From Apostichopus japonicus (Eukaryota; Echinodermata; Holothuroidea; Aspidochirotida; Stichopodidae), in NCBI RefSeq assembly GCF_037975245.1, contig NC_092582.1:17262577-17326576 (forward strand): DNA of 64,000 nucleotides, in the 5' to 3' direction. The first letter of the stretch is position 1. Every line of letters starts with the position of its first letter. The notes beneath the pieces are model-generated. The model saw only the letters and a program-made list of their open reading frames with translations, made no database searches and had not been told where the DNA came from. Shown here one piece after another: positions 1,990 to 52,893 of this stretch. Made by a program: the position numbers and the translations under genes.

Positions 1990-1993
1990 TCAA

Positions 1994-6097: not shown

Positions 6098-6157
6098 CTA
6101 TATCGAAATTCGGACTTCTTCATCACTTCTAAAGCGCCCGAATCGACCGCTCGCCAT
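6098..6157 (-). CDS. Tiny ORF, possible first exon of a minus-strand gene
   Basis: A 19-codon frame reads MASGRFGRFRSDEEVRISI and lies in a CpG-containing, promoter-like region. The residues look like the N terminus of a real protein, but the frame stops quickly and the only nearby donor-like GT (at GAA|GTCCG) is weak. It may be a first coding exon whose partners are outside my reach, or chance. Confidence 0.15.
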   Translation of the reverse strand: MASGRFGRFRSDEEVRISI

Positions 6158-6481
6158 TTCTCTATTTCTATGCTCCTTCAACTTAACTATACACGCTGGA
6201 ATTCGGGCTGGAAGTCGCCATTCTTCTCGTCTACGCTTGCGCTATGTTTCATCTATGGCCGCAGACATCTTGAATAGGGGTGCTTGGCAGCGATTGGCTG
6301 AAACCCCAAACCTTCTCTAAGATCTATTTTGATTGGTGCTAACATTCTGTGACACCGTCACCTTCGGCGAGTCGATCTAGGAGCTTGTCCAGTAGTCACC
6401 ATCTTGGGACTACATGAAACCTCTTTTGAAAATTAGTAAAATATTTTTAAAGAATTAATTTATGTGTTCCCACCCTACGAA

Positions 6482-6844
6482 ATGGAGCATTATTTAGTAT
6501 TTGGTAAGAATTTGACATATATATTTATAATAGAATTCAACGATCGTAGCAACGAAATGAGCCAATTAAACCGTATCACAGATTCTCCTTCGGCCGCGAT
6601 ATATGCCATTTACGTGATTGGTGCATTAAAGATGAACGATAGTGATTTTTCACCATCGACGAAAAAATACGATTTTATTCAAGAGTATTCTAGTTGGTTT
6701 CCATTTTACACATGTGAAAATTCAAGTCAATCCGATGTTGGGAAAGGCTTACAAAAAATTCCTAAACTCGTTGATTTTTTAAACCAAAATTGGGCTTTTC
6801 TTGAAAAGCGATATGATGATCACGTGATCTACAGTGACATGTGA
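6482..6844 (+). CDS. Hypothetical protein, 120 aa
   Basis: Open frame from an ATG at 6482 to a stop at 6844. The translation has mixed, protein-like composition (for example KYDFIQEYSSWFPFYTCEN and a C-terminal FLNQNWAFLEKRYDD) and no low-complexity bias. I recognise no domain. It lies just upstream of the THAP-like remnant on the same strand, so it could be part of the same decayed gene. A GTG lies six codons upstream but would not be used as a start in an animal gene. Confidence 0.25.
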   Translation: MEHYLVFGKNLTYIFIIEFNDRSNEMSQLNRITDSPSAAIYAIYVIGALKMNDSDFSPSTKKYDFIQEYSSWFPFYTCENSSQSDVGKGLQKIPKLVDFLNQNWAFLEKRYDDHVIYSDM

Positions 6845-6978
6845 CGTCATTATGATGATAACAACGTGAGCTCGGCGTAGTGTACTTCAGCAGTGTGCAC
6901 TTAGTGTGTAAGTTTAGTTGCAACCTACTCTATATTGGACTCGACAAACAACGTAAACCACTAGCAAAATCCAAGAAA

Positions 6979-25209: not shown

Positions 25210-25565
25210 TTACAGATGGAGGATTAAAGATGGCACGTCATCGAATGCGAGATTACCAATGTAGGGGAAGCAAGACCTCGTTGCTAGGAACTGTGTCTGT
25301 AATTTGAAATCCCACGGCTTTGCGAAGGTTGGATCGGATATTTTTTCTGATGTTCCGTCGATACTGATCAGAAATGGAGTATCCAGAATGTACAGACGAG
25401 GACAGTAACAGATGTCTTGGTTTCGGTTCAGTGATAGTTCATCCACATTAAGATTGCCATTCAGTGGTGCCTGATCAAAAGGCTTGGCAATGTGTGTAGT
25501 AGTTAAGCGAAACTTTGCGACACCCGTGGCGTAGCTGTGGACACGTGTTACTATGGACAGTATGA
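25210..25565 (-). CDS. Mosaic gene exon 24: NTR domain, C-terminal part, and stop
   Basis: Begins after CGCTTCCACAG and continues the NTR as ILSIVTRVHSYATGVAKF, with later cysteines in ICYCPR and ATRSC, making six in the domain. The stop TAA lies at 25210. An ATG at 25605 would give a separate 131-aa frame with a hydrophobic start, but the splice site and NTR continuity argue for a terminal exon. Confidence 0.8.
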
Positions 25566-28500
25566 CTGTGGAAGCGAAAATTAGTTTTAGAGGTATTTGT
25601 AGCATAATTTGGTATTGTTTGCAAGTAAATTCGAGTTAGTAATCTTGACAAATATTAAATTAGAGAATTTGTGTTTGAATTGACTGTGCATGTTTGTCAA
25701 CGAATATGTATCCTCCACCCATCACGAATGTTTACTGGTTTATAGCAATTTTAAACATGGCAGAGTCTAATCTTTTTGCTTTGAGAACGGAAATTATATT
25801 AATTGTTTCAAGTTTAGCGGGTCTTTCAAATATAAAAACAGTACTTCAGTATACTTACAGGTAGTATTCTGCCTACAGAGTTCTGACAAGGAGACACGTT
25901 GTGGGCAGGTTGGACAACGATCTGTTAAGTCAGTGGATGGAAAAAAAGGAGGAGATGAGAAGAAAACATATCGGAAGGGGAAGTACTGCCAATAAATGAG
26001 CATGCTAAATATCCAAGTTCCAAATTTTCACTTTTATTTTAAATTTTCTGTCGGAGAACTGTTCTCGGTCATTTAGACTAGTAAACAGCAATTGATTTGT
26101 TAGAAATTGAAAACGCCTAAGAAATATCATCAGCAGTGATGATCAACAGTGTAGAGTTTAGCCCGAAAACGCCACGTTTGGTTCTACTAACATAACTGAG
26201 AGCAAAAGAGGTTGTTAATATGTAGTGTTTATGGAAAGTTCATCCAGTTGTGCCGAAAAATAAATTAGGTTAGAAACTGATCATCAAAAGGCTCAAACTT
26301 GTGCGTTTGAATCTACTGAAATGTGACTGTGTTACGGCGCCCTGTAACTCGGTAGAGTTGGTTTATTGGGGGCAGTTAACATGGTAGGCTATTTACAGAA
26401 GCCAAGAAGCTCCTTTCAAATAAATGATTAAAAAGTTCCGCTGATTTCAAGACGAATTATTTTCTCCGTCTCTCTGTAATATTCAATAAGAGCAGTGTAA
26501 AATTACTTCAAGATACTAATTAAAAGCAACTTTATGTATAATACGGCTGCAACAATGATCGTGAGCACTGGCTGACTAACTTTTCCAGACTCGCTTGCCT
26601 CTAAAGATAATTGTTCGACAAGTGGTAAGCGTGGGCTCACACGTGATAGAACATCTGACCACTGATTGGTTCAATATTACTTACTTCTGAACATCATTAA
26701 CATTCATCACATCTATCGCTAAATGAACCAATCATGAGTGAGAAAGAAAGCAGCATGTGCTTTTAATCTTTCTTATGTTTATTTTTGTCTAAATTTACGG
26801 TCCCAAACCAGACGTCTGAAAAAGCAGGTCAAACAATTTCTTATGTATTTCTTTTTTTTACGGTCGTGGTGCAGGTGCTTGGTAAAACTCAATGGGGTAC
26901 ATGTTCATCCATATCACTTCATTACACTATATCGTGAGTACAAACAATGTCAATTAGTGAGTCCATGTTATGTTTTTGAAAATGCTGATAGTATGAGTAA
27001 AAAAACGCATTAAACATATATCTAAAATGTCTTTCTTTGTCTCGACGTAATCCCTCTTCTTTGTTTTAATTAGACGAAATAGTATCATTACTGTTGTTTG
27101 GAAATACATTCCATATGTAAACCATATACTTACCTGGACAGGTTTGTGTACACTGATCTCTGGTCACGAAGTTGTTCTCATTACCTCCACAGCCACTGTA
27201 GTTGAACGGGACACATACCTTACTGCCAACGTCATAGGCCCATCGCGGGACGGATTTATCGCACGGTCCCTCAACATGTGGTACTAAACAAAAGTTTTCT
27301 AAAGGAAGAAAATAATAATTATTATAGTATCGTAAACGCATCATATATGACTGTATAATATAGGTTTGCAAAATGTGACTTCCTACAATACAATGGTGTA
27401 GAGGTCTAGGTCGAACCCGGGAACAATGATATCACCGGGCCCACGATTATGAAAATGATAATACATTATGCTCTGCCCCAGGTTACCTTGGGCCCCTAAT
27501 CGACCTCGGGCTCCTGGCCTGTTGGTGACAATGCATATGACCCTCGTTGCAAAACCATTGCCCCACCCCACTCAATTCCCCGTGACTAACCTTTTAATTA
27601 CTCCAATATTAAAGCTGCATAGAATCTTACTCAATTGAGCAAACATTCTACGTAGTAGAACGTATTTTTGTGACTTATCAACATCTCACATCGGAACATG
27701 CACTCTGTATGGCAGCTACCGTATATAATGCGGTAAACGACATATGTGCGGCACACAATTTTAACCAAAGGTCTTTTATGAATGGTGCCATCAATTTAGC
27801 AAAGTTTGTACCCGTCCGCTATGCAGGCTTCATAATAATGTACGACCATTCCACGAATTACAAAGACAGCTACAAAAACCTTTGAGAAGGATCATATCAC
27901 TTACGCCGTAGGCAAATCTGTTGGCATTCAGACATTGCAGTAAACCCAGTACCCATTTGGAGTCCATAACCGAAAGGCGTCATTGCACAGTTGTCGCCGT
28001 TGAAGTAAACTTTACCATAATCGAGCTCGATATTCAGGTCCATTGCTATGTAGCTGTCATGGGGCTTGCTTCTACATCTTCCACCTGAAGGACAAGACGG
28101 AAGAAAAAACATGATATAAAAATTGATGTAATTTGATAATAAATTACAGGCCAACTTGGCAACCGGAAAGATACGATCGAACTTGACCTGGAGAATGGTA
28201 TGTAGAGAGGTATAACCACGGAAGGGTTAAAGGGTTGTGTATTTAATTCAGTTTGCCTACCAATTGTGTAAACAATTCCCTGTTCCTACAACATATTCTC
28301 ATTCTTTCCTTTGTCCTTTCAAATCCATGTTTTTTTTTAATGTTGCTGTAGGAACAGGGGAAGAGACCAAAGTCATGACACTTCACCAAGTTTAACCCGA
28401 CCCATCACCACCTCTCCCCTGCTGAATGCTCCAGTTAGACAAAACTGAAAGCGGAGAGGAGAAGAAGCTGAAAGGAAAGAGGAGAGGAAAGAAAACAATA

Positions 28501-31500
28501 ACGCGATACACACATATTTACTCACAGATTTCACAAGAACCGCGATGGAGTAATCGTAAATTACTTGAACCACCCTGTGCACAGACCCCGACTCCCAGAT
28601 GACAAGATGACGGATAGGTCAATGCATTAGATCCGCAGACTCGGTCTTCCTCCTTGAGACTGCTGACGTCAGCACAGTCAGAAATCTCGAGACAGATACA
28701 GACGGCGGTGTTGCTGACAACATCACATTTTTGTCCGAAAGGGCAAGACGTTTGGCTGCACAAATCTGTAGAGTCATGTGAAGCGTACTATGTTACTGTA
28801 GGATATTTTACAGAGGTGTACAACTGAAACGCTTAAAGTTTACGGTATTTAATATTTGGTTTGACTTTTGTATATTTTACTATTTTCTTCTTCGTCTTGT
28901 CATCAAATAATGTGAAACATTGCGTTATATTTTCGTTATGCCAGCAAAACCCGTCGTGGACAGTGCTCAGAGAAATTTGAATGATTATGGGGAAGAAGAG
29001 AATATCGTAAGGAAATTCGAATATCAATTGCCAGAATAATAAACATAGAAGGTTGAGGAGGGCGGTCATGAAGGTGCAAAGACTGCGGAGGGGGTACTGT
29101 GGCTAACTTTTCCCCTGAAATATCGGGCAAACTAGTACCTATAGTAGGTTATTGATCCCGATAAAACCGGGTGCGAATTTCCGATAAACCGCGGGGTTTT
29201 TCCCCTGGCTCTGACCAAACCTCACCCATCATTTATCTTTAAATATAAATTTGGTAGGTTACCAATGCAAACTGGAGAACTTCCATTCCAATTTCCATTC
29301 GCGAGACATTCTAGGCCCGCAGTTGATCCAGCTACAGAAAACCCTTCATTACACGAACAAGTCAACACAGAGCCAATGTTGTAAGAGTTGTCCGAGCATA
29401 CACCGTTTGTTATATTTATGGGCACGCAGGCAGTTGCTGAAAATAAGAGAATGAGACGTTATCAGGGTTTATCATAGAGGCGATCATATTCCATTATATG
29501 TATTAGGTAGCTTTCACAACCCACCCAACACGTGTTATCATGTTATAACACAGATGCATATAAATGCGCAATATATGTCGAAAACGCTAATATAAGCAAC
29601 TGTACAATTCGGTTCGGGTGTCACAACGTGATGTTGTCACACAACGTCAATGGGTATAGATCTATGCTTACTACAGGGAAGAGTCTTTCGAAAATACATC
29701 TTCATTTTGAGGACTTTTAAAGAAATATTGAAATAACATCAGTATCTAGGTTATGAATCGAAGTATTCATAAATGATATTTAGATGTATTTTATAGTTTT
29801 GCATCGCACGATTCTTCTCTTCTCCTGCTCTCAGCATGATAAAGTGTTATAATTGTGATTTCAGTGTATCTCTGTTTCTTGTGATCAATTTTTAGTGATT
29901 ATTTTCACATATTGGATGCCAACACATTTTGTCTCTACTCTCCTCGCTATTGTTAATATACATTGCTTGGCAGTGGGTTCATTACCCAATCAAAATCAAA
30001 TGATATTGTGCTTTTCAGAGATAATCTGCAGTATATTTTGTCTTCTTAGTAAATTATACAATTACTAAAAATAAACTCCCATCTGAAAGCTGCATGTCGG
30101 GCATGTTCGGGTTCGAACCAGTGAGCTTTGCAACCCAGAAGTCACTGGTTCGAATCCCGCTCTGGCTATAAATTGCTTTGTTCCTTTGTCTAACCTTTCG
30201 TAGTCATTTTCCAGTTATTCAATTAGTTATACATAATAATAGTAATAATAATAATGATAATGATAATAATAGTAATAATAATAATAATAATAATCAGCAG
30301 CAGCAGTTATTTTAACGACGCTTAAGCGACCACAAATGTGGGAGAAACCCGCAAGGGCTTATGGATTACAACTTACACGTCGGTTGGCTTCCAATTCAAC
30401 ATTTTAACTCAAATTTGGAATCTTTTCAAGTTAGAAAGTCATTTCATATAATAATTTACTTGAAGTTACTCCACCTTTTATCACGTTCTTTACTTTACCA
30501 TACTTCGAGACTCTTGTTATGCAGTTTCCAAGTGTATTGTTCTACTCTTTCGAATAATTTCTGGAACATTTGTAACAATTACAACAGTTCCATCCAATGT
30601 ATTCATTGATCGCTTTTGTATGTGGTAAAACAAAAGCTAGCTCATATAAGGAGTTCTTATGCCTATCTGTAAAGTGTTGCCTTTAATTAAAGAGAGCAAA
30701 TACCTCTACATGTTGGTATGGCGACGTCCCATTGCCCATTAGCCAAACAATTAAGCGTTTGGGATCCTTCAAGTTGGAAGCGAGAATTACAGGAGAAAGA
30801 AGCAACACTGGATCTGCCGATGGCTTTGGAAATAGCGACGTTACCGTTCAAGAAAACTGCAATATCTGGACAGGTTTCTAAGTAGTTGGATCAGGATGGA
30901 TAAAGAACAGAAAGAAAGTCAGTGCATTTATATCTAAATAGGTAATATAAAATCACAATCGACATATTGGAACAATTATGCGTAATAAAATTCTTGTCTA
31001 CATCTGTCAAAATGCATTTACATGCATATTTATAGTGTGTTTGGCAATGGTATTGTATCAATGGTTTCACTACTTAACTGCGTTGTCTGTAATCTACAGA
31101 CAGGCAAGGTTTATTTCTCTTTAGAAGTAGAAATTTAAAAAAATTATTTCTTTTCAACACATTGAAGTAATTTCATTTTTTTTTTTATAACTGCTGATAT
31201 CCATTTATATCCAAGCCATTGACGATACTTACATTTTTATTTTTTCAAACAGGCGTGAGTCCTGCTTTGGAAGTCCCGTGGGGCTGGTTGTTTCCCATTG
31301 TGCTAGATTTTTAACTATTTATCTGAATATATATGGTTATAAAGCTATATAGTCAGAGAAACATATGATGTACAAAAACATGTTTTAAAATATAAAACGT
31401 TTTATCTTACTTATCATTTTCACATGAACTGTTGCTTGCACAAGCTTAGTCCCACAAGAGTAGGAACCTTCGTAATCCTTTGTCATCTTTGGTAGACGTA

Positions 31501-34500
31501 ATCGCAAACCTTTCTCAAATTTCCCTTCTTGATAGAAAGTGCTATAGAAAAGACAACAATAAGAGGATATCCATATTATTTATGATTAAAATAAAAAAGA
31601 AATGTGCCATTTTATTCGAAGAGATATCTTAATGTTACAATATTTTATATTTCACAATTTGATTTGATTCACTCATTTTATTGGCAACTCCCAGTTGAGA
31701 ATCGTTTGCATTTCCGAATATAAAGAATTTCACTTCCAGTATTTGGTTTCTCGTCTCATTACAGAAATGACACCACAAAAAAGTCTACAGTGACTGAACT
31801 TACTGGCCGATTCGGAACTTGCAATTGCCGATCGGTTGGGCTTTTCAAAATAAAAACACAAACGTGGTGGTAGGCTAACTGACATTGATTTATGTTATTT
31901 GAGGAGATATGCTGATTAAGTGGAATATATAACTAAATCATCTCTAAAGTCTGAGGTGAAAAACCACAGGACTACAGCATCTGGCAAAGTTGACATTTAT
32001 CCAAAGTCAAGTCAGTGTAGTTGTAAAGTTTCGAATGTATGAAAACAGTACAGATAAGTTATTCTTTTTTTTTATATTGGCTGTATCATGTGATTTCTTC
32101 TTAAAGTACGATATTCAAGTTTAATTTTTTTTATAGATGGCTCTTTATGCATACCCATTTGCCAGTACGGTACCCTTAAAGTTCCATCCGAAGGAATATT
32201 TAGTCATCAAAACTTCCAAACTATATTTACTTTCAACCGCACAAGTTAGCAATATTTCTTCGCCTTCGTATTGGGTAAGAACGTTGTTGTCATGCACTCT
32301 CGGATCCGTTACCATGGTTACAGTGATAACTGAAAATAAAGTGGTAATAACCAAATGTGCGAAAAAAGAAAGAAATTGAAAGAAAAATACAAAAGTCTTC
32401 ATTTTGTAATTAAAAAGTGTTTATCCGCATCTCAAAGTCATATGTCTCACTGCCTCTCGATGTTCGTACCTCTCTAGATTGACCCATTTTCAGTCCAACC
32501 TCTGACCAAACTTTCTAATTTCTCGTCATTACTTATCGAAGGGTATGCAATAGTCTTCTTTACCTGTCTCAATTACTTACTTGGTAAACAAATTGATTGA
32601 CCCGTTTCAAGCAACCATTGTCCCCTATCGCAGTAACATGTATGACTTCCAAACAGCTGGTAACCGTCGTTGCATTGGAAATTAACAGAATCCCCGTGAT
32701 ATATTCCGTCAGCAATATCCGCATTATGTAATATGTAACCATTCTCCAAGGCGCTGATGTCGCTGCATCTTCCTGTTAAAAATATGAAACGAGGAGAATT
32801 GACTAGGACAAAGGTACACATACATATATGGTTTTATGTAACTCTTTAAAACTACACAGGTAAACATTCGAGGTGAGAGTGGGCGAGAGGGGGGGTGACA
32901 TGAAATCGCTGAAATCGACTCTAATGTAAAGGGGTCTGAGGTCCTCCCAAATAAATTAAAGTACAATTTTAGACGTGAAATGGTGCATTCTTATTCATTT
33001 TGAGACTATAAATAACCGGTTATTCAATGAAGTCTACACGGACGGTGCTAATACTCTTGAATTTTGAACAAGCAAAACTCCCTGGCTGAACCTCAATATC
33101 AGCAATACAAATGTAAAACAATAAAGAAATAAATATTTTTGTTCCATCGTTGAAACGCTATAATTTTTCGTTTGAAACTATCGGAGTTCATAGCGTTTAC
33201 AATCACAGAATTTATATCAACATTGAAAGAAGAGAAACCCAATATGTTACAATTTAATATCAGTATTTCACAGCTAATATTGATATGTTACACTTGCTGA
33301 TGCTGTAATTTCCTGAGACAGTGATACTTTTCTTGTGCACGTATGGCGTTAAATAATTTACTCAGTTATTATTTGAGAGATTAGTCAAGATCATTGCAAT
33401 GAGGATGATTGGTAGCAGAAGAACCTTACGTAATAGCTTAACAAACGGATTCTTATTCATATTGAATTTCTGTGACATAAAGTGAGTGCCGGTTATGTAG
33501 TGTAAACGTACGAAGAATCTTAACATCAAGGATCTGTACAGTGTTGCCCGCCTCGGTTTTACAAGCATATTGTCCAACATCTTCCATAGTAAAATTTTGA
33601 ATCCAAAGGTTTGTTCCATTGTTGCCACCCTGAGGCAAAGAAGACAAAAGAATATATATAATAAAGAAGAAAGAAAAAGGAAACTAATAGACGGTATTAA
33701 AATACACCAACATTTACGTGGTCTATTTTGTGCAACCATCTTTTTCTAAACTGGGTGGTGGTGGGCAAACATGTTAAGTCTTCAAATGAAGAGGTCTCAG
33801 AGGGTCCCTCCCCGTTTGAGTTATTATGTAGAATGTAGGGTTTGTAATGCAAAATGGTGCTATACTTTGCCAAGTTTGAAACAACTTTGAAGACGTGTCT
33901 CGACTGTTTAGGTTGTAACGCCTACACATATATTAATTATATCATGTATAATTATATCAGCCCGTTAGAGGAGGGAAGGTTCTGAGTACCTCTGATTTTC
34001 ATAATTGTATAGGGCGTGGTTGCACCTTGGTCAATGGTTTATATTAAACTGTTTCGTAAATAATTAGAAAAACACAACGATCAATCTTGTAAATGAAAAG
34101 TAGTATGACTCTCTTTGAGGTAATATTAAACAGAAGCAAATTATTATAATAGCCATAAACAATTCCCTTATACATGCCAGCTTTTCTTTGTTTTAAAAGG
34201 TTTTCAATGACGCAGCCTTGGTGTTAATGCATTTACTAATATGGCTGTTTCCTTTTATTTTGTTTTCTTATGTATCACACTGAATGTAAATAACGAAGAA
34301 CAAAAATAAAAAAGATCTCATTTTGATTCAATTTTGGGGGAATTTTACCCAATTAAACCTTCACCGATGTTGTACAAACTATACAATATACAATCGATAG
34401 AACTATGGAGCTACCATTTAGACCAAATTGAGACATCCTCCTATGTACAAAGGTGTTATTATAATCCAAAAACAGACAACTATTTAATGATTTATTTTAA

Positions 34501-43500: not shown

Positions 43501-46500
43501 TGAAGGGTATAATCCTTCCGCCACCCTAACAAACAGATGGTTGGAAATAATGGTGGCAATTGTTAGCTCGCTGAATATTTCAACCTGCTATGTTGTTGAC
43601 CTTCAAATGCAAAAAATGGGAGCAAGTCACTGAATTGAACATCTTCCAGCCGAATATGTACCCACCTGGTTCTCTCGTTCCAGATAGGTGATTGCTTCCT
43701 AAGTTGAAATACCACCTAGGTCTTTTATACGTAGGTACTTTGCAAGACATTTCGAGGAATCTATCTCCTTCGTAGGCTATAACTTTTTCGTTTATCATAG
43801 TAAAGTTATTAGATACACGAATCTGGTAATCGTGTTGACCACTTGTATCTGAGGAAATTAAAGAAAAAACACAAGTAGCAAAATATGAATGTATTGTCCC
43901 TCTATTTCCGTTCAGGTTTTACAGAAACACTTGTTCAACACCTGTAGTGGTAAAGCTATCAATTATAGTAAGTTACTCTCTTAAAGCGTTTTTAATAAAG
44001 AGAGAGCCACAGCCGTCGGTAAATGTATGTGTTAGAGGAAGTATTTATGTGAAGACATTTCTCTTTTTTTGTAACACCAGCGCTAAAAGGGATTAAAATA
44101 TTGGAATTTACTTTAAAATAAAAAAAGACAAGACACTTGTCCACTCATGTCTTACCCAGAATACACTGTGGAAAGTCCCCCTCCGTCCATTGTCCATCTT
44201 GACAAACGAATCTGTTTGTACCTATCATCCTGTAACCTTCTTTACACACATAAATGACGTAACCGCCATGGTGTCGGTGATGCGACGAATTTACTCTAGT
44301 GGCATCTCTTGGTGTAGGTTGAAGTTCCCTGCACTTAACTAATGGCAAAGATGGCAAAGAAGATGTTTGAGGGAGGGGAAGGTATGTGGAAAAGGTAAAT
44401 AGAAAGGAAAAAAGAAAACGCTCGTTAATAAGTAATTGACCCATGATGTGAAGTTCGGGTTCAATTATAACGATGAACCGATTGTGAGCACAAGCAAATG
44501 AATGAAACACGAATCAGGTCTCCTTCTCTCGTCTTTTGTCCCCTCCAACAAATTAATCTCATTGCTTACATTTGCAAGAAGGCTCTGTTCCACTCAGTCG
44601 GTTTTCGTGTGAGCAACTCCTGACAGCGTCACCATCCAGGGTCGTCGTGGAACGATCGGTACATTTATATTGTACAGTCTCGTTATAATTTAAGTAATCT
44701 CTATCCGGTTCTTCAAAGTATCTTAGCCGTCCAGTTGGTTGAGAAAGTGGACATCTAATTGCTACATTTGGCAAAAAAGAAAAAAGAAAAAAATGAAACC
44801 CCAGAAGAGACCATCAGTTGATATTTGAAATAGCATGAGCTATAAGATATGATGCGCTTGTATTTTGGGTTTCTACGTTACAATGTGAAGGAGAAAAAAG
44901 TTTCAATTCGTTTTGTTGTGTGATGCCAGATGTTTAATCAAACAACAACATCAATGTTTTAACAAATATGCCGGTCATTGCCAGTCATAGCATCCTGGAG
45001 TGTAGCTGTTTTCAGTACAATGTACAGTTATCTGTATACGATATACATTTCAGTGATGATACCAGAACCTTTATGGGAGTCGGGCGGGACAGTGGTAAGT
45101 GAGTTGGGGCGTACCTGTACAATTTGGAACGCCTCCACATGACCACTGGCTGTCAGTTTGACATGTGCAATGGATAGGGCCTGGTGTTTTTAGGAAGAAA
45201 CCTTCAACACAAGCGAATGTCACAACGTCGTGGACAATGTAATTACCGGTCCCACTTCGTTGAACCGTCAAATTAGGTCCAGGCACAAGTGGTGGGCAGT
45301 TGTTTGCTGTAATGAAATTATTCTCTTAAATAAATGAAAATGTTATTTTAAGATGTAAGAAAAATACATAGAAGAATGTAAATAACATCATACTGGTAAA
45401 ATGCCTTCAAATTCTATCATTTCATTTTCAGATAACGTCATTTAAATCTTTTTCAAAGTGTACTATCTCAGGGTGTTTTTGTTTTAGTTTTCTTCAATAT
45501 TTGAATTAGAGATAAAGGAATAGTTTACAAAGTTCACTAGAAATGTCAAGATTAAATTTCCTTTCACAGGCCAAAGGAGATATACCCTGAAATGTCTTTT
45601 TAAGTGTAATAATGTACTCGGTCGGAACAACTGGCTTGCGGGCGCTTTGTAGGGAGGGATTCAGTGACTCACGGTCATTGCTTGTTAAAAGTAGCTCTTA
45701 AAAGTGTCACAACAAACTTGCCTTCTTTTGGCTTATAAGTAAATTTACGGTAACACTTGCGACATCTTAAAGTATATGCAAACTTGCACTACGATATATA
45801 CACTCCGTCAAAAGTTCATAACTAAATAGAAATATGACCATACTTTCTGAATGTGATGAGTTTTAAAAGTCCTTGATACCAATTCCGTTCTCATAGATAA
45901 GTATACCCATTACCAGCCACCCCCCCCCCCCTAACAACCCCCAAACAAAGCTTGTTCGTTTCAAATGTCAGCAGGATAAGTCTCTTTATACATTGAAAAA
46001 GCTCTAGAAAAACTTAAAGCTTTACACCAAACATGTAAGGCGCCAATGTCTGATGCATAGCAAAGAAGATGAAAAAAAAATTCAAAAAACGATGCAGTTA
46101 TATTGAAGATTCGTCTAAATTCCCTGATTGATATAACCTCACCTAAGCAAGACGGATTGCTGCCGCTCCAAGTTCGATTTCCTAAACAGGTACGGGTAGA
46201 TGTGCCTTGTAATGTGTAACCAGCTGTACATTCGTAATAGACAGTAGCGGAAACGGAATAATCTAGGCCGATTTGAATCAAATTTTCTGATCTTCCTGGC
46301 GGATCACAAGTTGGTACTGAAAAGGACAGAGTAGAACGTTAAAAGTGACTTATGCAAGAGAGTCAAGATTTTAAAGATATTGTAACTTTTACACTCTGGT
46401 TGGGAGACAGTTTCATCATTCCTACAATCACACCATATCATTATAACACCTGGCGTGTTTTTACATGGCATTGGAGGTTGATGTAGTTAACCACACCGAT

Positions 46501-49500
46501 ACGGTTCGCCTCAGCAGGGAACGGCTGTGGATGCAACGATTCTTCCCCATGGTCTCAACATCCAAGAATGGAATGACTAAACACCATCGGTAACCTCACT
46601 CACTTTACCCATACCTCTCTCCCTCTATCTCTCTTTCCTCACACTGCTCTATTCATCACAATTCCGTCCCATCCTCGATACTCAACTGTTATTTTCTTCC
46701 TACTTCACCATTTTCCTGCTCCCCTTTCACCTATATACTTACTATTCAACCCACATTGCTACATCGTTCTACGTAGTTCAACTCCATATTACATACATAC
46801 AGGCCTTTCATGATATAAGCGGTTTCATCTCATTTGCTCAGTCTATGCTAACTCTATTCACTGTTCATTGGTCCAATTTAGCTGTCTAGTGTTCAATGTG
46901 TGCTTTCTGTTTTCTGTTTCACAGTTTGCCTTTGAAGAAGATCCTGCTCGGATCGAAACGTCAAGCCCTTTATACCATTTAACACCCCGAGCAGTTATGA
47001 TGGCGAGCAATACTTCCAGATTGTTTTCAAACTTAGATGGAAAGCTCTATAGGTTTGTTATACTCCTCTGCGTCATGTAGACTAAAGCTAATGATTATGT
47101 GATCTCAATATAACAAAGACTTACGAAGACATTGCCCTCTAATACGAGACCAAGAACCATCTTCGCTACAAACGATTTCCCCGTCTCCTTCAAGGCTATA
47201 ACCTTCGTTACAAGTGTAAGTTACTTTAGCTACATTTCTGCTCCAGGAGGCGTGATCCATGGACGGCGGATCCTGGCAAGTTATGTTATCTGTAAAGTGG
47301 ACAAAAAACACCGTACAATCTTGTTTACTACATGAAAGCAGCGGTATTATCACGCAACGCAATGACGTGCATAGGATTCCAATGGTGGCAGTGGTCATGG
47401 TGGTGTGTGTGGGGGGGGGTGGGGGAGGGATAAAAAACTTCTCGTGACTGATTTAGATGAGGGCATGAACCTTTTATGGACGGGCTGTAGACCAGTCAGA
47501 ATTGTTGCGCAGGAGGGCTGCTTGGACGTTAATAAGTGAAATTGTGCTTCTGATGCATATTCAGACTACGGCTAAGGTCATTGAGGCGGAGTGAGGCGGT
47601 TCACGTGCTATTTTAAAAACAAACCCAAAACTGTTAATATCATATCAGATGATCAAAAGAGAACCTTTGAATGACATTTAACACCATCTTTCGTTTGACA
47701 ATTGTTTCTTTTATTGCGGAGTAAACATGCTATCGGAGGATGAGTATAGAGCTACTGTTTTCCTTTATTGACTTTTAGTATTGTGTGGAAGGAACTAAGC
47801 TGATAGACTGTGTTTTACATTAAATAGTACAGCCACTTTCATTCTTGAGCATCGGGTTAAAAGATTGATTTCCCACAAATCTTTAACGTGGTACAGAAAT
47901 ACCGCTTGGACATATTAAAGCATTGTTTCGTAACAGTCTGCAATATATCAAATTCATTTTGGGTCTTTAAAGGCATCTTTTAATTTGACATTTCCTTCGT
48001 TTCGGAGGAGCTGATGTACATCGAGTTTTGCGTTTGCCTAACGAAATTAGCACAAAGTAGGACCTATTGGTAGTTTAAGTACTCTAGGTACCTGACCAAT
48101 TTAGCCCATATTCTGTACATTTGTAGTGTGTGATATTCTTACTCAAAAATCTGTTAAACGTTTTCGAAGAGCTCTTTTCGTGGTCAAGAATATACACATT
48201 TGAGGTTTTGAACAATCCTTTAATTATGTGCAATATATGACGTGGTGTGTTATCAAATATTCTTATTTAAGGCCTTAATAAGTTAAACCTTAATTACAAG
48301 CTCACATATATCATTTGAATAATGTGATGTTACACTTTTCAAACAGGACAATAAAATACTCCGGAGACTACAACCCTGGGTCAGTATCCTTGAGACGAAG
48401 ATTGTAAAACAAAGGGAAACCATAACAGAAAATTAGGCAATCACTCTCTTTACATCATCGATGTGCATAAATATAGCTAATGTTTATTCATTACGAATTA
48501 AGAAAAGACTTGTAAAATGGTAAATCTTTGATGGATTTTGATGGGAGTTGCAACTATTTTCATGAATTCTAATGCCTATTCGAGTGATTAGGACAATGTT
48601 GTTCATAGGTGTCCGTCTTAAATATATCAAAACAGTGAAAAAGATAACGCCTGAGGATCTAATTTAAAGTTTCTAACCTTATGGTTTTATTAACACTAAA
48701 ATTCTGAAGAAAGCAATTGATGAGTAATTAAAGAATCATCCATGAACGTGCATGAGCCTAAATTTTGGCCTACAGATTGTAAATGCTGCCTGGCTGAAAA
48801 TATAGACAAACTTCAAACATCTTATGTGATTGAGTTAAGTATATGTCATTGAAGATACAAAACATAATCTACTTTTAGAATGAATGTTAAAACACATTCA
48901 TCGATAGCGTAAAATTGTCATACCGTCTTGCTTCAAGCATTGCGGAATTGGTCCATTCCAATTTCCATCAGAAAGACAGTGCAGAGTCTCTGGTCCATAC
49001 AACAAACCTTTTTGACAACCAAATCTGATCGTTTGACCAAAATTATCGATGGGAGGATTTGGCAAAATGACGTACCCATCTGATGAATGCCGCGGCTGTG
49101 AGCAATCTATAGCTGTATAACGGAGAGAGAGCAAAAATATCTATGTTCACATTTGTTTAATTTGAACAAGAATTTGAACAAGGACTATCGTAATTTATGA
49201 TTACAAACCGTATAAATCTATTGAATGTATTAAAGGAATAACGAAGGCAGGGATCAAAAACAATTTATATTATTCAGTAACCTCAAAACTATCTTTTATT
49301 CGATTTTTAAGTTAACCTCTTCCCACTGGACTGAATACGCTCACTTTGAATATTGGCTCCTACTAGTAAGGCCTAATCACAATGCACAGTAAGCCGCCAT
49401 TGTTTATGTAATACGCTTGAAATTCATATTGATGACGTAAGAGAGGAACAACTCTCTTAACAAAGTCGTCTTCCTTGTGGTAGACACCCCCTGGAAAATA

Positions 49501-52500
49501 TTCAGCTGTTGTTGCTAGGACTAGAACTTAAAAGGCCTTGCAATTCCTATAAGCCCAACGCAGCTTAAAAAGTACTCTTTTCTTAAAACTTTCGTTCATA
49601 AAAAATCCTAGGTGACGCTAAGCAAGCACACTGACGCTATGCCTAGGCTACGCTAAAGTAACAATGTAGCCTTATATACAGCACGCCTTGCCAGACTTAG
49701 GATTATTTCATAACCAATTCAAATGGAATGTTCACGGATGTCGCTCATCTCACTGTGGTATCTCTTAGTACCGCTTTATTTGGCAAACGGTTTCAAATTT
49801 TGTATTGATTGTTAAACAGCTTCCTTTAACCTACTCGGTTCAAGCAGTAGCCTTCTGCTTATATAAATAATCTTCTCATCTGGTTTACAACAGGACACTA
49901 ATATAGATTATTATAGCATTCCCCACATTGCATGGGCCCAGGTGTGACATATTAACTGATAAATTTAATATTAAGAAACCTTTCCTTTTCATGCAGTAAA
50001 AGTTATGGTATATTGGATGAAAATAAGTTGCCTTTAAATAGTCTTGTCTGCAGTACGGAAAGGTTACATTGATTGATTGAGTTTTTCGGTGAGGAATATT
50101 TCGTCTTCACTGTAGAGGTCTCATTGTAAATTCAACAGGGAATATCCTTCACTATTACCAATACAAAGTGTCTGTGTGTGTAATATCATAATATAAGTTG
50201 GTCTTACGTTGATGGACACAAATAAAACCGCATTTCTGGTCACAAGTACATCTTTCCTCTTGTGTACAATCACTGTCCGAGACGCATGAGTGATTACAGC
50301 CGTAATGCAAGGCGTAGAAGCCGTCACGGGTAGGACACCCTTTATAGAAAGGACAACATGATAATTAAAAGGAAAATGGGAATATTTGATATCATTATAA
50401 TAGACATTTAACCTTTACATATTGTTTTCTACCATTAATGGTTGTGTAATCGATACACATATGTCAAAAAGATGTTAGCAAAATATGAAATAACTCCAAG
50501 ACTACGTTTGAAATAATATTGTTGACCATTTGGGATGTATATGAAACAAAACTAGTCATTCTTATTATATTATGATTTAGGGAAGGATGGAAGGAAGGAT
50601 GGTTGAATTCATGCATGGTTCGATAGATTGATATATATATACATGCAGACAGGCAAAGCCTGATTGAATAACGACCTTCTCACGATTTAGGCGACTTAAA
50701 TAGAAACTCACCTCGCCGTTCGAGGTCATTTCCATGCTTCACTTTTCAATTATTTTCCAATGAAGCAGATAACGTGCTGGACTTTTCTTCACATGCCAGC
50801 TGGGGGGGGGGGGGGGGAACTGTATTTTTTACAAAATATTGTTTTTTATGGTTTGCCAGATATTATCTGATTATAATATTTTGTTGTAATCAGTGCATGA
50901 TCAGTGGGTGGTTTGTGGTATAACCGCGACATGTTTGTATCTTGCTGAGTTCTCCTGAAAATGACACATTTTTAAAAGTGTGGCTTACCAAAACGTACTA
51001 TATAAGTTCAAGACTTCGTTAACTAATTTTGGATTGAAACGTACTAACTATAATACTCAAAGTAGGAATGCATTTGATTGAAAATTAAGACGGCTCACTT
51101 TAGATTGTCTTCACCAAATGAATGTTGTAGGGCAATTAATAAATGATTTCGATTCCATTCGATTGCATCCATCGAGCAGACGAGACATCTCCATTATATA
51201 TTAACCATGTTTAACGTTTACTTTTAAGTTATTTGAACTAAACAGTAATCCCAGCCAATTGGCATGTAATGCCATTGCATATTAGTTTCGAATAACAATA
51301 AATAATATCAACATGAATTTTAAATTGCTAATGTAAACGAATTCGTTACCTTCATCTCTATATAAATAAACACGAATTAATTTTAAGCTTCTCTCTCATA
51401 TATCACATATCAACCCCTTTGTTTTTAATCCACTCGTATTTTTATATTTATGGTAGTACCAAGAAAATAATCAAGTACAAAGTTTCCAGTGTTTCTTTCT
51501 TCAAACTAATTGTAAATAAACTGAATAATTTAGGAAAGGGAGATAAAAGAAAATGATTTACCAAAATATTTTGGATTGAAATATAGTTTCTAAATAGAAA
51601 TAAAAATTAAGAAGAAAAAACACCCCACTATTCAATCAAAAAGAGGGAATTAATTTCTCCCTTAAGGAAACAACTGAAGTAAATGCTATCAACTCTCTTT
51701 TTTTTCAATGACAAAATAAAGCACGGCAGCTCGTCATTCATAGCATAGAAATTTGTTTTTTACTTTGAAAGAATGGATTAGTTAAAAGAAATCAAGTAAA
51801 GCCTTTGTCTTTATTTTTCTTTCATTTAAATACATGTAAAAGAAGAATGCATATTCTCAGAGGAAGGGAAATGACAGGCAACACATTTAATTTAATGCTG
51901 CATTAGATATTAATCTGGTTGCCAGATATCAGCCACGAATAATTAAACTATTTGATTTTAGCGATAACACATGTGCTTATAATTCCCGTTTCTCATGTGA
52001 AGCCTACACGTGTTTGTTTCCACAGAACCACTTAAAAACTATCCGAACAGGGTAAACTATAACCTGGTTCTACATTTCATTATTGATTTGTCTCATCGTT
52101 TCTTATGTAAGAACATCTGATTACCAGAGCTCAGGCAAAGCCAAATGTTGTAAGTCATCACTGCGGCATTGAGTATAGGTTACTTATAAGTACTACGGAG
52201 GGACGGGCTACGCAGTCAACCAAAGAACATGAGAGGAACAAAAAACCCGAAAAAAAAATACCGCGAGCGGTACTTAGAACTTTGCACATTTAGTTACTTA
52301 GGCCTATACAGTGAAAGCCAAAGGCAAAAATTAACGTAAGTTCGTAATTACTGATCCTAAATAACCTTCTTATCTGTCTTAAATCAAACCCTAAATAACC
52401 ATACTATACTGTAAATACACCCGATACACACATAGAACACAGTTACTACTGTAAATTTTAAAGTTTTGTACCTCAGTAAAACTGGCTCGTGCTATAAATC

Positions 52501-52893
52501 GGTAGCATGTGCTATTATGATTACAGTAAGAATATGTGTAATTCCAACAAATCAAGTTGTTGGAATTTCTGGGATTACACATATCCTCAGTTGTTACTGT
52601 AATCCTTATAGCACATGCTACCGATTTATCAGATTTGTCAGCACGATCCAGTTTTTACTGTGGTACAAAACTTTAAGATTTACAGTAGTTAATGTAACCT
52701 CTGTGTGAATCGGCTGGTAAATACTATCCATTCTGCGATAATTGCTAGTTGAACGGCTCAGAGCTTAAAGAGAATATTTTCTGATTTTGCTTCTTATTCA
52801 ATACTTACGGTTCTCATGACTCTGGCACTGGTTCCTATGAAATTGAAAATTTAGTATAATTAGGATGACAAGTGACCCAAATTTAAACTCCAT
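25210..52893 (-). CDS. WFIKKN-like secreted mosaic protein, expanded with sushi and Ig domains; 24 exons, 1364 aa
   Basis: I traced 24 exons by domain content, acceptor/donor sites and phase; the coding lengths sum to 4095 nt including the stop. Order and approximate residues: signal peptide 1-25; WAP 30-72; sushi 1-6, 73-437; Ig1 438-537; sushi 7-8, 538-665; Ig2 666-748; sushi 9, 749-812; Ig3 813-914; sushi 10-11, 915-1030; follistatin/Kazal 1031-1110; degenerate Kunitz 1111-1170; Kunitz 1171-1225; NTR 1226-1364. Known family: WFIKKN1/2 are WAP-follistatin-Ig-Kunitz-Kunitz-NTR proteins that bind GDF8/GDF11. The same module set here suggests an extracellular growth-factor antagonist or protease inhibitor, with the sushi/Ig array giving adhesion or complement-like recognition; that role is inference. 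Module boundaries are nearly all phase 1. Exons could still be missed in the long introns, and alternative splicing cannot be judged. Confidence 0.82.
25859..25921 (-). CDS. Mosaic gene exon 23: NTR domain, N-terminal part
   Basis: A 63-nt exon codes for DRCPTCPQRVSLSELCRQNT. The C-x2-C ... LS-x2-LCR phrase matches the start of WFIKKN-type NTR domains just after the second Kunitz. Acceptor CTGACTTAACAG, donor T|GTAAGT, phases 1-1. Confidence 0.78.
27134..27298 (-). CDS. Mosaic gene exon 22: Kunitz 2, intact
   Basis: All six cysteines with canonical spacing: NFCLVPHVEGPC, RWAYDVGSKVC, FNYSGCGGNENNF, DQCTQTC. The residue after the second cysteine (P1) is Asp, not the Lys/Arg of trypsin inhibitors. 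Acceptor TTCCTTTAG, donor G|GTAAGT, phases 1-1. Confidence 0.93.
27905..28084 (-). CDS. Mosaic gene exon 21: Kunitz 1, two key cysteines missing
   Basis: GRC, VYFNGDNC, FGYG and SECQQIC align with Kunitz cysteines 1, 3, 5 and 6. The second and fourth (the Cys14-Cys38 pair of BPTI) are absent. Acceptor GTCCTTCAG, donor C|GTAAGT, phases 1-1; the junction with exon 20 makes an additional cysteine. Confidence 0.75.
28526..28765 (-). CDS. Mosaic gene exon 20: follistatin/Kazal module
   Basis: A follistatin-type hairpin (C-x4-SCPFGQKCDV...AVCIC) is followed by a Kazal core with RVCGSNALTYPSSCHL and a final GSC. In WFIKKN proteins the equivalent module contributes to growth-factor binding. Acceptor GACTCTACAG, donor T|GTGAGT, phases 1-1. 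Confidence 0.85.
29263..29436 (-). CDS. Mosaic gene exon 19: sushi 11
   Basis: ACVPINITNGVC, LTCSCNEGFSVAG, ECLANGNWNGSSPVC. The LANG-x-W phrase is shared with exon 18, suggesting a tandem duplication. Acceptor TTATTTTCAG, donor G|GTAACC, phases 1-1. Confidence 0.87.
30092..30296 (+). repeat. tRNA-derived SINE-like repeat with trinucleotide tail
   Basis: 30130-30170 resembles the 3' half of a tRNA: TTTGCAACCCAGAAG, a perfect B box GGTTCGAATCC, then an acceptor-like CTCTGGCTA. The 5' half is degenerate and does not pair, so it is not a working tRNA. A short body and then a (TAA/TGA)n tract (30236-30294) follow, as in SINE tails. It lies in a mosaic-gene intron. Confidence 0.4.
30704..30877 (-). 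CDS. Mosaic gene exon 18: sushi 10
   Basis: TCPDIAVFLNGN, FSCNSRFQLEGS, CLANGQW and PTC. Acceptor CAACTACTTAG, donor G|GTATTT, phases 1-1. No long ATG-initiated frame covers it, but the domain and both splice sites are clear. Confidence 0.85.
31411..31541 (-). CDS. Mosaic gene exon 17: Ig3, second half
   Basis: LRLRLPKMTKDYEGSYSCGT is the E-F region with D-Y-x-G-x-Y-x-C, then a G strand (QATVHVKM). Acceptor CTTTTCTATAG, phase 2 in; donor A|GTAAGA, phase 1 out. Confidence 0.83.
32155..32329 (-). CDS. Mosaic gene exon 16: Ig3, first half
   Basis: QYEGEEILLTCAVESKYS gives the first Ig cysteine and FGWNFKG a C-strand tryptophan. Acceptor TTATTTTCAG, phase 1 in; donor GG|GTATGC, phase 2 out, forced by exon 17. 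Confidence 0.75.
32581..32772 (-). CDS. Mosaic gene exon 15: sushi 9
   Basis: RCSDISALENGYI, FQCNDGYQLFGS, HTCYCDRGQW and SIC; one extra cysteine. Acceptor TTTTTAACAG, donor A|GTAAGT, phases 1-1. Confidence 0.87.
33512..33629 (-). CDS. Mosaic gene exon 14: Ig2, second half
   Basis: LWIQNFTMEDVGQYACKTEAGN is the E-F strand region (D-x-G-x-Y-x-C). Acceptor CTTTGCCTCAG, phase 0 in; donor C|GTACGT, phase 1 out. Confidence 0.82.
34736..34866 (-). CDS. Mosaic gene exon 13: Ig2, first half
   Basis: ATVLVREGDEVDLSCTI gives the A'-B strand with the first Ig cysteine. No C-strand tryptophan is seen. Acceptor CGGTTAAG, donor GGA|GTAATT; phase 0 out is required by, and fits, the next exon. The donor is non-optimal. 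Confidence 0.68.
35507..35710 (-). CDS. Mosaic gene exon 12: sushi 8
   Basis: NCEMHLPS, VSCNIGFERIG, FCRDAIW and PAC. A little longer than the others between the first two cysteines. Acceptor GTTTTCTTTAG, donor G|GTAAGA, phases 1-1. Confidence 0.8.
36131..40877. mobile_element. 4.7-kb CACTG-ended DNA transposon-like element
   Basis: The left end starts CACTGAAAA and the right end, on minus, CACTGAAAAAATAAAC. A TA lies on each side (36129-36130 and 40878-40879). Both subterminal zones (36155-36500 and 40625-40870) carry many direct and inverted copies of CGACTAA/TTAGTCGG, a layout known from CACTA/EnSpm and Chapaev-type elements. No intact transposase is visible; short frames inside (for example minus 38975-38784) may be remnants or captured host sequence. 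It sits in the mosaic-gene intron between exons 11 and 12. It could also be two elements of one family flanking unrelated DNA. Confidence 0.55.
37146..38640. repeat. Large imperfect palindrome built from 145-bp tandem units
   Basis: The outer arms match in inverse orientation: 37150-37300 (CAGAGGGTTTGGTTAGCT, GTAACCAATTGCCT, GATGTGGCTGGGAGAGC) against 38500-38640. Between them are about five units in forward orientation (starts near 37371, 37513, 37654, 37808, 37952) and about three in reverse (38100-38420). Each holds CCAGTAATTT, GGGGTACCCCTGCCAGTAG, TGACCTAGGTCAGCTCATGA and GGATGGGCAT. The turn is near 38095-38110. Nested in the 36131-40877 element. Confidence 0.8.
40987..41166 (-). CDS. 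Mosaic gene exon 11: sushi 7
   Basis: WCQDLGQIRNG, FECNEGYHISGTS, CRTNGTWSGPKPTC: a textbook sushi domain. Acceptor ATCTCCTTCCAG, donor G|GTAACT, phases 1-1. Confidence 0.9.
41311..41385 (+). CDS. Possible upstream exon of the nested plus-strand gene
   Basis: Bounded by GATCCTCCAG and ATG|GTAAGAG. Phases 1-1 would join the exon at 42828 in frame (VSY-G-ARKHETYLQ). It reads TDVVACGTGLLEEVSP. A third splice-bounded segment at about 41579-41681 lies between them but has stops in all frames. Weak evidence. Confidence 0.22.
42828..42987 (+). CDS. Possible exon of a nested plus-strand gene, RII-alpha/Dpy-30-like helix
   Basis: Flanked by TTAATATTCACAG and AAG|GTGAGG, phase 1 in and phase 2 out. 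It reads ETYLQKYDISSIITQIKDI, then HLPRKPNSTFL. A YLxKxxI helix ending in a P-x-x-P-x-x-FL phrase resembles RII-alpha/Dpy-30-type dimerisation motifs of cilia and sperm proteins. It lies in the intron between mosaic exons 10 and 11 on the opposite strand. Other exons are not established. Confidence 0.3.
43239..43355 (-). CDS. Mosaic gene exon 10: Ig1, second half
   Basis: WYKLSLQPLRRSMSGNYSCVV is the E-F strand region with the Y-x-C motif, followed by a G strand (FVNISLEV). Acceptor TTTCTCTTTCAG, donor G|GTGAGG, phases 1-1. Confidence 0.82.
43666..43848 (-). CDS. Mosaic gene exon 9: Ig1, first half
   Basis: KVIAYEGDRFLEMSCKV gives the B-strand cysteine and RPRWYF the C-strand tryptophan of an Ig domain. 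Acceptor TTTCCTCAG, donor G|GTGGGT, phase 1 out. Confidence 0.8.
44156..44338 (-). CDS. Mosaic gene exon 8: sushi 6
   Basis: KCRELQPTP, YVCKEGYRMIGT, VCQDGQW and PQC; typical sushi with a His-rich stretch (SSHHRHH) in the first half. Acceptor GCCATTAG, donor G|GTAAGAC, phases 1-1. Confidence 0.88.
44570..44761 (-). CDS. Mosaic gene exon 7: sushi 5, divergent
   Basis: RCPLSQP, YKCTDR, RSCSHENR and PSC keep the four-cysteine frame, but the usual Gly-x-Trp before the last cysteine is replaced. Acceptor AATGTAG, donor T|GTAAGC, phases 1-1. Confidence 0.78.
45115..45306 (-). CDS. Mosaic gene exon 6: sushi 4
   Basis: NCPPL, TFACVEGFFL, then HCTC and a W-S-C-G before PNC: six cysteines rather than four, so probably an extra disulfide between the HCTC and WSC positions. 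Acceptor TTCATTACAG, donor G|GTACGC, phases 1-1. Confidence 0.82.
46143..46316 (-). CDS. Mosaic gene exon 5: sushi 3
   Basis: TCDPPG, YYECTAGYTLQGTS, TCLGNRTW and PSC. Acceptor CCTTTTCAG, donor G|GTGAGG, phases 1-1. Confidence 0.88.
46600..46966 (+). repeat. Pyrimidine-rich dispersed repeat with hammerhead-like end, copy 1
   Basis: A 330-bp pyrimidine-rich stretch ends in TTGAAGAAGATCCTGC, CGGATC and GAAACGTCAAGC (46931-46965). The same arrangement recurs at 53585-53845. Both are plus strand, antisense to the neighbouring gene. The end motif resembles CTGANGA...GAAA cores of hammerhead ribozymes in Penelope-like elements. Confidence 0.5.
47125..47289 (-). CDS. Mosaic gene exon 4: sushi 2
   Basis: ITCQDPP, TYTCNEGYSLEGDG, VCSEDGSW and GQC give a canonical short sushi domain. 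Acceptor CACTTTACAG, donor C|GTAAGT, phases 1-1. Confidence 0.88.
48160..48620. repeat. Non-coding duplication, copy 1
   Basis: Paralogous with 56815-57232: shared GGCCTTAATAAGTTA, CACATATATC, AACAGAAAATTAGGCAATCA, AAGAAAAGACTTGTAAAATGG, CAACTATTTTCATGA and GGACAATGTTGTTCA. Lies in the mosaic-gene intron between exons 3 and 4. Confidence 0.85.
48924..49112 (-). CDS. Mosaic gene exon 3: sushi 1
   Basis: Four cysteines (IDC, FGC, LHC, PQC) with the conserved GNW before the last one. Acceptor TTATACAG, donor G|GTATGAC, phases 1-1. Confidence 0.85.
50208..50339 (-). CDS. Mosaic gene exon 2: WAP domain
   Basis: Eight cysteines in the whey-acidic-protein four-disulfide pattern: C-x12-C-x3-C-x5-C-x5-C-x1-C-x3-C-x3-C. 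The central SDSDC and KCGFIC match WAP. One residue (Thr) is inserted between the normally adjacent fifth and sixth cysteines. Phases 1-1. Confidence 0.75.
52420..52716. repeat. Long hairpin (foldback MITE) in the first mosaic-gene intron
   Basis: Left arm 52420-52560 and right arm 52562-52716 are near-complementary: TACTGTAAATTTTAAAGTTT, AAACTGGCTCGTGCT, AAATCGGTAGCATGTGCTAT, TGATTACAGTAA, ATATGTGTAATTCCAACAA on the left, all mirrored on the right with a few substitutions and a small insertion. The ends read CCGATACACACA and, on minus, CCGATTCACACA. It lies about 90 bp from the exon 1 donor. Confidence 0.88.
52809..52893 (-). CDS. Mosaic gene exon 1: start and signal peptide
   Basis: ATG at 52893. 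The 28 residues begin MEFKFGSLVILIILNF, a clear signal peptide, then HRNQCQSHEN. Donor C|GTAAGTATT, phase 1, joins the WAP exon as R-CPTRDG. An acceptor-like CAATTTCATAG lies inside, but the in-frame signal peptide makes the longer exon preferable. Confidence 0.7.

Follow-up and report, generated by a model that had tools for sequence, protein, structure and literature searches.

The window (the whole stretch of DNA analysed, 64,000 nucleotides, C22:17262577-17326576) carries a predicted gene of 24 exons whose product would be a mosaic of WAP, sushi, Ig, follistatin/Kazal (FS), Kunitz and NTR-like modules. With somewhat better than even confidence, it is read here as one intact gene for a secreted protein, a member of a WAP-sushi family to which Ig modules and an FS-Kunitz-NTR-like tail were added, and not as a WFIKKN gene enlarged by insertion. 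The CxC-type WAP and the sushi array would come from a WAP-sushi family expanded on the same chromosome, and the Ig modules and the tail (FS, Kunitz-like, Kunitz, NTR-like) may have been joined to them via phase-1 exon shuffling. Shuffling of this kind onto a WAP-sushi gene, rather than descent by insertion, would account for the resemblance to WFIKKN.

Gene model

The model comes from genomic sequence, in which candidate exons flanked by acceptable splice sites were translated and joined. On the minus strand, it runs from a start codon at 52893 to a stop codon ending at 25210, and the exons join in frame to give 1370 residues and a stop (Table 1), not the 1364 residues of the first-pass annotation. 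The 24 phase-compatible exons proposed there were borne out, all of them on one strand and all 23 introns having GT-AG ends. Phase 1 is seen at 21 of the 23 introns; the exceptions split Ig2 (phase 0) and Ig3 (phase 2). The modules follow the order signal peptide, WAP, six sushi, Ig, two sushi, Ig, sushi, Ig, two sushi, FS/Kazal, first Kunitz (Ku1), second Kunitz (Ku2) and NTR, and the earlier description of one large mosaic gene, with the WAP first, the FS/Kunitz/NTR-like end last and an order reminiscent of WFIKKN, fits this model. The predicted protein has 91 cysteines and 20 N-glycosylation sequons. Its N-terminus reads as a signal peptide and no membrane span was seen at the C-terminus on inspection by eye, which together point to secretion.

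Two open frames on the plus strand of the window were also noted: one of 361 residues at 16205-17287 with an arylesterase (paraoxonase-type) match of 54.7 bits, and one of 375 residues at 10552-11676 whose only Pfam match, CheR_N at 17.2 bits, is below threshold.

Table 1. Exons of the predicted gene and the insertion in one of its introns (window positions).
Feature	Positions	Strand	Evidence or remark
Exon 1, start codon and signal peptide (MEFKFGSLVILIILNFQFHRNQCQ...)	52809..52893	-	ATG, hydrophobic stretch, donor GTAAGT
Exon 2, WAP module, CxC variant, 8 Cys	50208..50339	-	Pfam WAP 28.5 bits
Exon 3, sushi 1	48924..49112	-	splice join, Pfam, Cys/Trp count
Exon 4, sushi 2	47125..47289	-	splice join, Pfam, Cys/Trp count
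Exon 5, sushi 3	46143..46316	-	splice join, Pfam, Cys/Trp count
Exon 6, sushi 4, 6 Cys	45115..45324	-	splice join, Pfam, Cys/Trp count
Exon 7, sushi 5, without Trp	44570..44761	-	splice join, Pfam, Cys/Trp count
Exon 8, sushi 6	44156..44338	-	splice join, Pfam, Cys/Trp count
Exon 9, Ig1 first half	43666..43848	-	Ig_3 28.4 bits (joined module), cut-off 30
Exon 10, Ig1 second half, RGDS at residues 529-532	43239..43355	-	splice join, Pfam
Exon 11, sushi 7	40987..41166	-	best Pfam sushi stretch, residues 546-601
Insertion in sushi 7 - sushi 8 intron, 4747 bases, outside protein	36131..40877		absent from copies A and B
Exon 12, sushi 8	35507..35710	-	splice join, Pfam, Cys/Trp count
Exon 13, Ig2 first half, ends in phase 0	34736..34866	-	I-set 28.2 bits (joined module)
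Exon 14, Ig2 second half	33512..33629	-	splice join, Pfam
Exon 15, sushi 9, 5 Cys	32581..32772	-	splice join, Pfam, Cys/Trp count
Exon 16, Ig3 first half, ends in phase 2	32155..32329	-	Ig_3 20.6 bits (joined module), below cut-off
Exon 17, Ig3 second half	31411..31541	-	splice join, Pfam
Exon 18, sushi 10	30704..30877	-	splice join, Pfam, Cys/Trp count
Exon 19, sushi 11, 6 Cys	29263..29436	-	splice join, Pfam, Cys/Trp count
Exon 20, FS/Kazal module, 10 Cys	28526..28765	-	Kazal_2 34.1 bits
Exon 21, putative Kunitz remnant (Ku1)	27905..28084	-	no significant Kunitz match
Exon 22, Kunitz (Ku2), six Cys, Asp at P1	27134..27298	-	Kunitz 73 bits
Exon 23, start of NTR-like module	25859..25921	-	C-x-x-C ... 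C pattern; phase-1 intron
Exon 24, remainder of NTR-like module, with stop codon	25210..25565	-	C-x-C-P motif; weak model support

Support for the individual modules

Comparison of the joined protein with Pfam returned sushi (252.7 bits, nine stretches passing on their own), Kunitz (64.4 bits, one stretch), Ig_3 (56.3 bits, three stretches), Kazal_2 (28.2 bits) and WAP (22.3 bits, or 28.5 with the N-terminal piece alone). The scan, suggested with the first-pass annotation, recovered WAP, sushi, Ig, Kazal and one Kunitz, and gave no match at E<=1 for Ku1 or the NTR-like end. When the Ig modules were compared singly, Ig2 passed and Ig1 and Ig3 fell below the cut-off. In the module order claimed earlier, WAP, sushi, Ig, FS/Kazal and Ku2 stand, Ku1 is unsupported and the NTR draws weak support from shuffles and a profile match.

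Four to six cysteines are present in all eleven sushi exons and a Trp in ten of them. A sushi model built from these eleven exons, which match it by construction, gave two further matches in the window, both at chance level (E 0.4 and 0.89); no twelfth sushi was found and additional sushi exons in the window were rejected.

Ku2 is a clear Kunitz module, with all six cysteines. The residue at its P1 position is Asp, and Arg occupies that position in Ku2 of the WFIKKN gene on C16 (described below). On a model made from 24 Kunitz domains of the same genome Ku1 scored -1.0 bits, a value reached by 627 of 1000 free shuffles and 729 of 1000 shuffles with cysteines fixed. If it is a Kunitz, it is without counterparts of Cys14 and Cys38 (Kunitz residue numbering). 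Its predicted structure is a Kunitz-like hairpin with a C-terminal helix, at a pLDDT of 40.7, too low to mean anything.

The C-terminal end is weakly identified as an NTR module. It had no PDB match at E<=10. On a small model of four NTRs from the same genome it scored 4.4 bits; of 2000 shuffles, which do not keep cysteine positions, six did as well. Profile comparison (hhalign) gave E 0.014 at a probability of 3%, in the right register at C-x-C. Pairwise z values were 4.1 with the C8 NTR, 1.7 with that of C16 and about 0 with those of C19 and C13. The phase-1 intron lies five residues past the third cysteine in the window and four in the C16 WFIKKN NTR. The predicted structure of the second NTR exon was unusable (pLDDT 28.7).

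Copies of the gene and their conservation

A search of the genome (671.6 Mb, 35 contigs) found the FS-Kunitz-NTR tail three times on C22, in the window and in two copies termed A and B. Elsewhere only single Kunitz or weak FS matches were obtained, the best at 57.6 bits against 260.4. The N-terminal part of the gene was found at the same C22 sites as the tail and in rearranged fragments. Exons differ by 0 to about 4% among the copies.

Copy A (C22:16.86 Mb) keeps all 24 exons, exon 1 being seen in part (bases 33-85 of 85). Its exons are 97.8-100% identical to those of the window, as against 90.6-99.0% for aligned blocks with exons included. Over the 23 exons from WAP to the second NTR exon (exon 1 excluded) it has 15 synonymous and 14 nonsynonymous changes (dN/dS 0.26; p 4.5e-4 in a binomial test against the proportion of synonymous sites), with splice dinucleotides intact and no internal stop.

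In copy B (16.98 Mb, C22:16975200-16998000) there is a stop in sushi 4, and five exons (Ig2b, sushi 9, Ig3a, Ig3b and sushi 10) are missing. Its exon 1 has one change relative to the window and its 5′ part a dN/dS of 0.31. Gene conversion is suggested at the 3′ end of this copy, because 5.2 kb there are 99.1% identical to the window, unlike the 5′ part. Of a fourth copy (D) there are only pieces, some on each strand: one has sushi 7-8, one runs from sushi 2 to Ig1b with a single gap in sushi 5, and one has WAP and sushi 1.

The insertion listed in Table 1 is bounded by CACTGAAAA... and ...TTTTCAGTG and shows a TA duplication. Further inside it has inverted arms that agree at 88% across 548 columns; it is probably a DNA transposon.

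From these comparisons, the window gene looks real, recently duplicated and preserved by selection. It is very improbable that the copies stem from assembly duplication or unresolved haplotypes, or that the gene is decaying. The small exon differences would suit such an origin, as would the stop and the lost exons of copy B and the scattered state of D, but distances of 113 kb and 312 kb on a single contig separate the copies' tails, large private events (the 4.75-kb insert, multi-exon loss, inversion) distinguish the copies, and the window and copy A are codon-constrained with no internal stop in the exons compared.

A WAP-sushi cluster on the same chromosome

At C22:0.50-1.60 Mb (863300-873200, 1013000-1065000 and 498000-527700 read) lies a large cluster of sushi exons with CxC-type WAPs, which is probably an expanded WAP-sushi gene family. 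Sushi exons adjoin the WAPs there, as they do after the window WAP; the exon scan of the cluster sought phase-1 exons only, and the phase of its sushi exons is not an independent result. The CxC type is common to the window WAP and the four cluster WAPs read, and the window WAP was aligned with three of them. Against Pfam, one of three cluster WAPs scored 19.1 bits, under the cut-off, and the other two gave no match.

Outside its own copies the window WAP had six matches at E<=10, four of them at C22 0.87-1.12 Mb (best E 0.019) and the others on C11 and C4. The reverse query with a cluster WAP gave 26 matches at E<=10: 18 at C22 0.50-1.17 Mb, two on C18, two on C15 and, as the remaining four, the WAPs of the window family (E 0.005-0.027); the C16 WAP was not among them. 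The link is that of one short module, at E 0.005 to 0.03. The best non-copy match of sushi 1 is C22:504389 (E 0.0011), in a stretch taken as one gene where one CxC WAP is followed by six sushi matches, which parallels the opening of the window protein. For sushi 7 a C19 sushi is closest, and C22:504338 is fourth among the non-copy matches.

Searches for Kunitz and Ig modules in the cluster (52 kb and 30 kb, on the strand of the genes), with models built for this analysis, stayed at chance level, the best E being 0.03 for Kunitz and 0.05 for Ig. For NTR the search covered the 30 kb, and its model was too weak for absence to tell. Of the 91 Kunitz places counted genome-wide, C22 has just three, each of them Ku2 in one of the copies of the window gene.

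Several arrays were noted in passing. On C4, 54 of the 91 Kunitz places lie on one strand at 23.27-23.35 Mb, with a WAP at 23350383, and on C11 an array at 24.27-24.33 Mb holds 25 of the genome's 43 WAP matches, again on one strand. At C4:11512000-11531800 two Kunitz exons stand near a stretch that by eye resembles a membrane span, together with a glycosyl hydrolase 81 match that is weak (19 bits) and misses the cut-off; the exons and these neighbouring features are perhaps one gene. In the C22 cluster stretch L053, at about 91-6975, open frames repeat at a spacing of 373 bases and seem to form a tandem repeat array.

Relation to WFIKKN

A separate gene on C16 (12.447-12.465 Mb) has WAP, FS/Kazal, Ig, two Kunitz and NTR modules in the WFIKKN order (Pfam: WAP 39.4, Kazal_2 33.7, Ig_3 31.3, Kunitz 107 in two stretches, NTR 28.3 bits). 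Its exons, like those of the window gene, were joined in this analysis, and a search for its Ku1 missed the first half. With its FS-Ku-NTR part as query, strong matches were confined to its own exons, followed by many Kunitz and weak FS matches on C4 and C11; in the window family this query matched Ku2 alone (E<=1, 39.7-40 bits).

Twenty-four Kunitz domains were sampled from the 91 places: 21 with the strict cysteine pattern from 27 small loci, two from C4 and one from C16. The nearest to the window Ku2 is a C4 Kunitz (27/51 identical), and C16 Ku2 is tenth (24/51). In a tree of 24 Kunitz domains none of the 22 inner branches was starred. Against single solved domains the window FS scored best with SPARC (27.7 bits), FSTL3 (25.9) and agrin (20.5), as against 15.8 with WFIKKN2, a modest gap, and shows no preference for WFIKKN. 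The WAP core reads C-x-C in the window and CC in the C16 gene. The WFIKKN feature of an N-terminal WAP is present, with no link to the C16 WAP at E<=10; that of an FS/Kazal right after the WAP, followed by Ig and Kunitz, is absent, since eleven sushi and three Ig modules intervene. The module set is thus common with WFIKKN, yet none of the tested modules (WAP, FS and Ku2) is specially close.

Origin of the architecture

The inference drawn earlier, that WFIKKN had been expanded by insertion of sushi and Ig arrays between WAP and FS, is weakened because the same genome keeps a separate WFIKKN gene on C16, because the window WAP sides with the C22 cluster and not with the C16 WAP, and because Ku2 is not specially close to that of C16. 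A WFIKKN paralogue of this make, still acting as a GDF8/GDF11-type antagonist, is considered unlikely. It would explain why all five WFIKKN module types are present in a compatible order at both ends, why the NTR-like phase-1 intron, counted from the third cysteine, is within one residue of that of C16, and why a phase-1 intron interrupts Ig1 and the C16 Ig at comparable positions; the weak NTR signal in shuffles and profile match also agrees with it. Descent of the tail from a common source with WFIKKN still fits the WAP-first, Ku-Ku-NTR-last order, the similar NTR intron and the weak NTR signal. Against the paralogue stand the lack of an Ig between FS and Ku1, the FS without preference for WFIKKN2 and the failure of the C16 tail query to reach any module of the window family other than Ku2. 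Equally doubtful is a fuller version of capture, a lineage-specific chimera in which an expanded WAP-sushi family local to the chromosome took up the FS-Kunitz-NTR tail and became a surface- or matrix-tethered trap for TGF-beta-family factors, without protease inhibition and parallel to WFIKKN.

It was also considered that the model fuses two adjacent genes, a WAP-sushi-Ig gene and a short FS-Kunitz-NTR gene. Fusion of tandem genes in gene prediction is a known source of false architectures, according to PMC3927609, the gene model is known from genomic sequence alone, phase 1-1 exons fit two shuffled genes equally well, and one ATTAAA lies within the intron between sushi 11 and FS. In this intron of 497 bases, however, one script, by its own criteria, found no first exon resembling a signal peptide, and copy A keeps order, frame and splice sites. 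The lack of such an exon and the conservation of copy A speak for one gene without proving it, and the split into two is improbable. In a scan of all introns for a signal-peptide-like alternative first exon there was one candidate, after sushi 1, and a second gene start in the introns was rejected. The preferred reading is one mosaic gene of WAP-sushi descent. In line with the first-pass annotation, which knew of no described protein with this exact architecture, none was found among the papers listed in searches of open-licence literature, searches that were in part loosely aimed. The main text of PMC13228809 has no Kunitz, sushi, Kazal or WFIKKN.

Predicted function

The product is probably a secreted binding or matrix protein. 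How it might bind can be proposed only tentatively, as a docking rod with a ligand-binding tail. The WAP/sushi/Ig part would be a long rod with many contacts, docking on surfaces, on matrix or on other extracellular proteins. An RGDS directly past the second Ig1 cysteine, kept in copies A and B and arising in 2.9% of shuffles, may dock integrins. The tail would bind a ligand, for which TGF-beta-family factors, contacted by FS, are the foremost candidates.

Trypsin inhibition by a Kunitz module needs Lys or Arg at P1. With Asp at P1 of Ku2 and no recognisable Kunitz sequence in Ku1, the protein is probably not a trypsin-type inhibitor, and the protease control claimed for it earlier is weakened on the same two counts. 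An ordinary multi-headed inhibitor, in which WAP, Kazal and Kunitz modules inhibit and sushi and Ig modules serve as spacers, would suit the inhibitor-type folds and an intact Ku2 of 73 bits with its six cysteines; the Asp at P1 and a Ku1 that does not rise above shuffles and that, if a Kunitz, is missing the Cys14/Cys38 counterparts make it quite improbable.

For WFIKKN, PMC3427181 assigns GDF8/GDF11 binding to FS and antiprotease activity to Ku2. The paper titled 'Agrin Binds BMP2, BMP4 and TGF-beta1' (PMC2874008) fits the binding of such ligands by FS modules outside WFIKKN. These two analogies make a TGF-beta-family factor the first guess for what the window FS binds.

Comparison with known systems

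If the model holds, a second gene, from another N-terminal family, has reached or re-used a WFIKKN-like module set, and a WFIKKN-like mosaic and WFIKKN coexist in one genome. The young copies, with exons 0 to about 4% apart, would then be a testable case of exon shuffling, and also a case for the loss of inhibitor features by a Kunitz module and for the local growth of families of extracellular proteins.

Complement factor H-like and other sushi-array proteins are secreted and have long sushi arrays; the window gene is like these proteins in its long array. They are not known to have a WAP, FS, Kunitz or NTR. Papilin carries a thrombospondin type-1/ADAMTS-like cassette, which was not among the eleven Pfam families found in the window protein at E<=1. 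It shares Kunitz and Ig modules with the window gene and, in protostomes, a WAP as well, according to PMC3427181. The same source describes GASP as a deuterostome protein with papilin as its probable sister and a sea urchin GASP without a follistatin domain, and in the parts consulted mentions no sushi, as against eleven in the window gene.

WFIKKN1 and WFIKKN2 (GASP2 and GASP1) are like the window gene in the N-terminal WAP, in the FS/Kazal, Ig and Kunitz types and in having Kunitz and NTR or NTR-like modules last. In the window gene, by contrast, WAP and FS are separated by eleven sushi and three Ig modules and no Ig stands between FS and Kunitz, and its CxC WAP, unrecognisable Ku1 and Asp at Ku2 P1 also set it apart. 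Unlike the C22 WAP-sushi genes (0.50-1.60 Mb), which have neither above chance level in the stretches read, the window family holds Kunitz and Ig modules; like them, it has a CxC WAP followed by sushi exons that can be read as phase 1.
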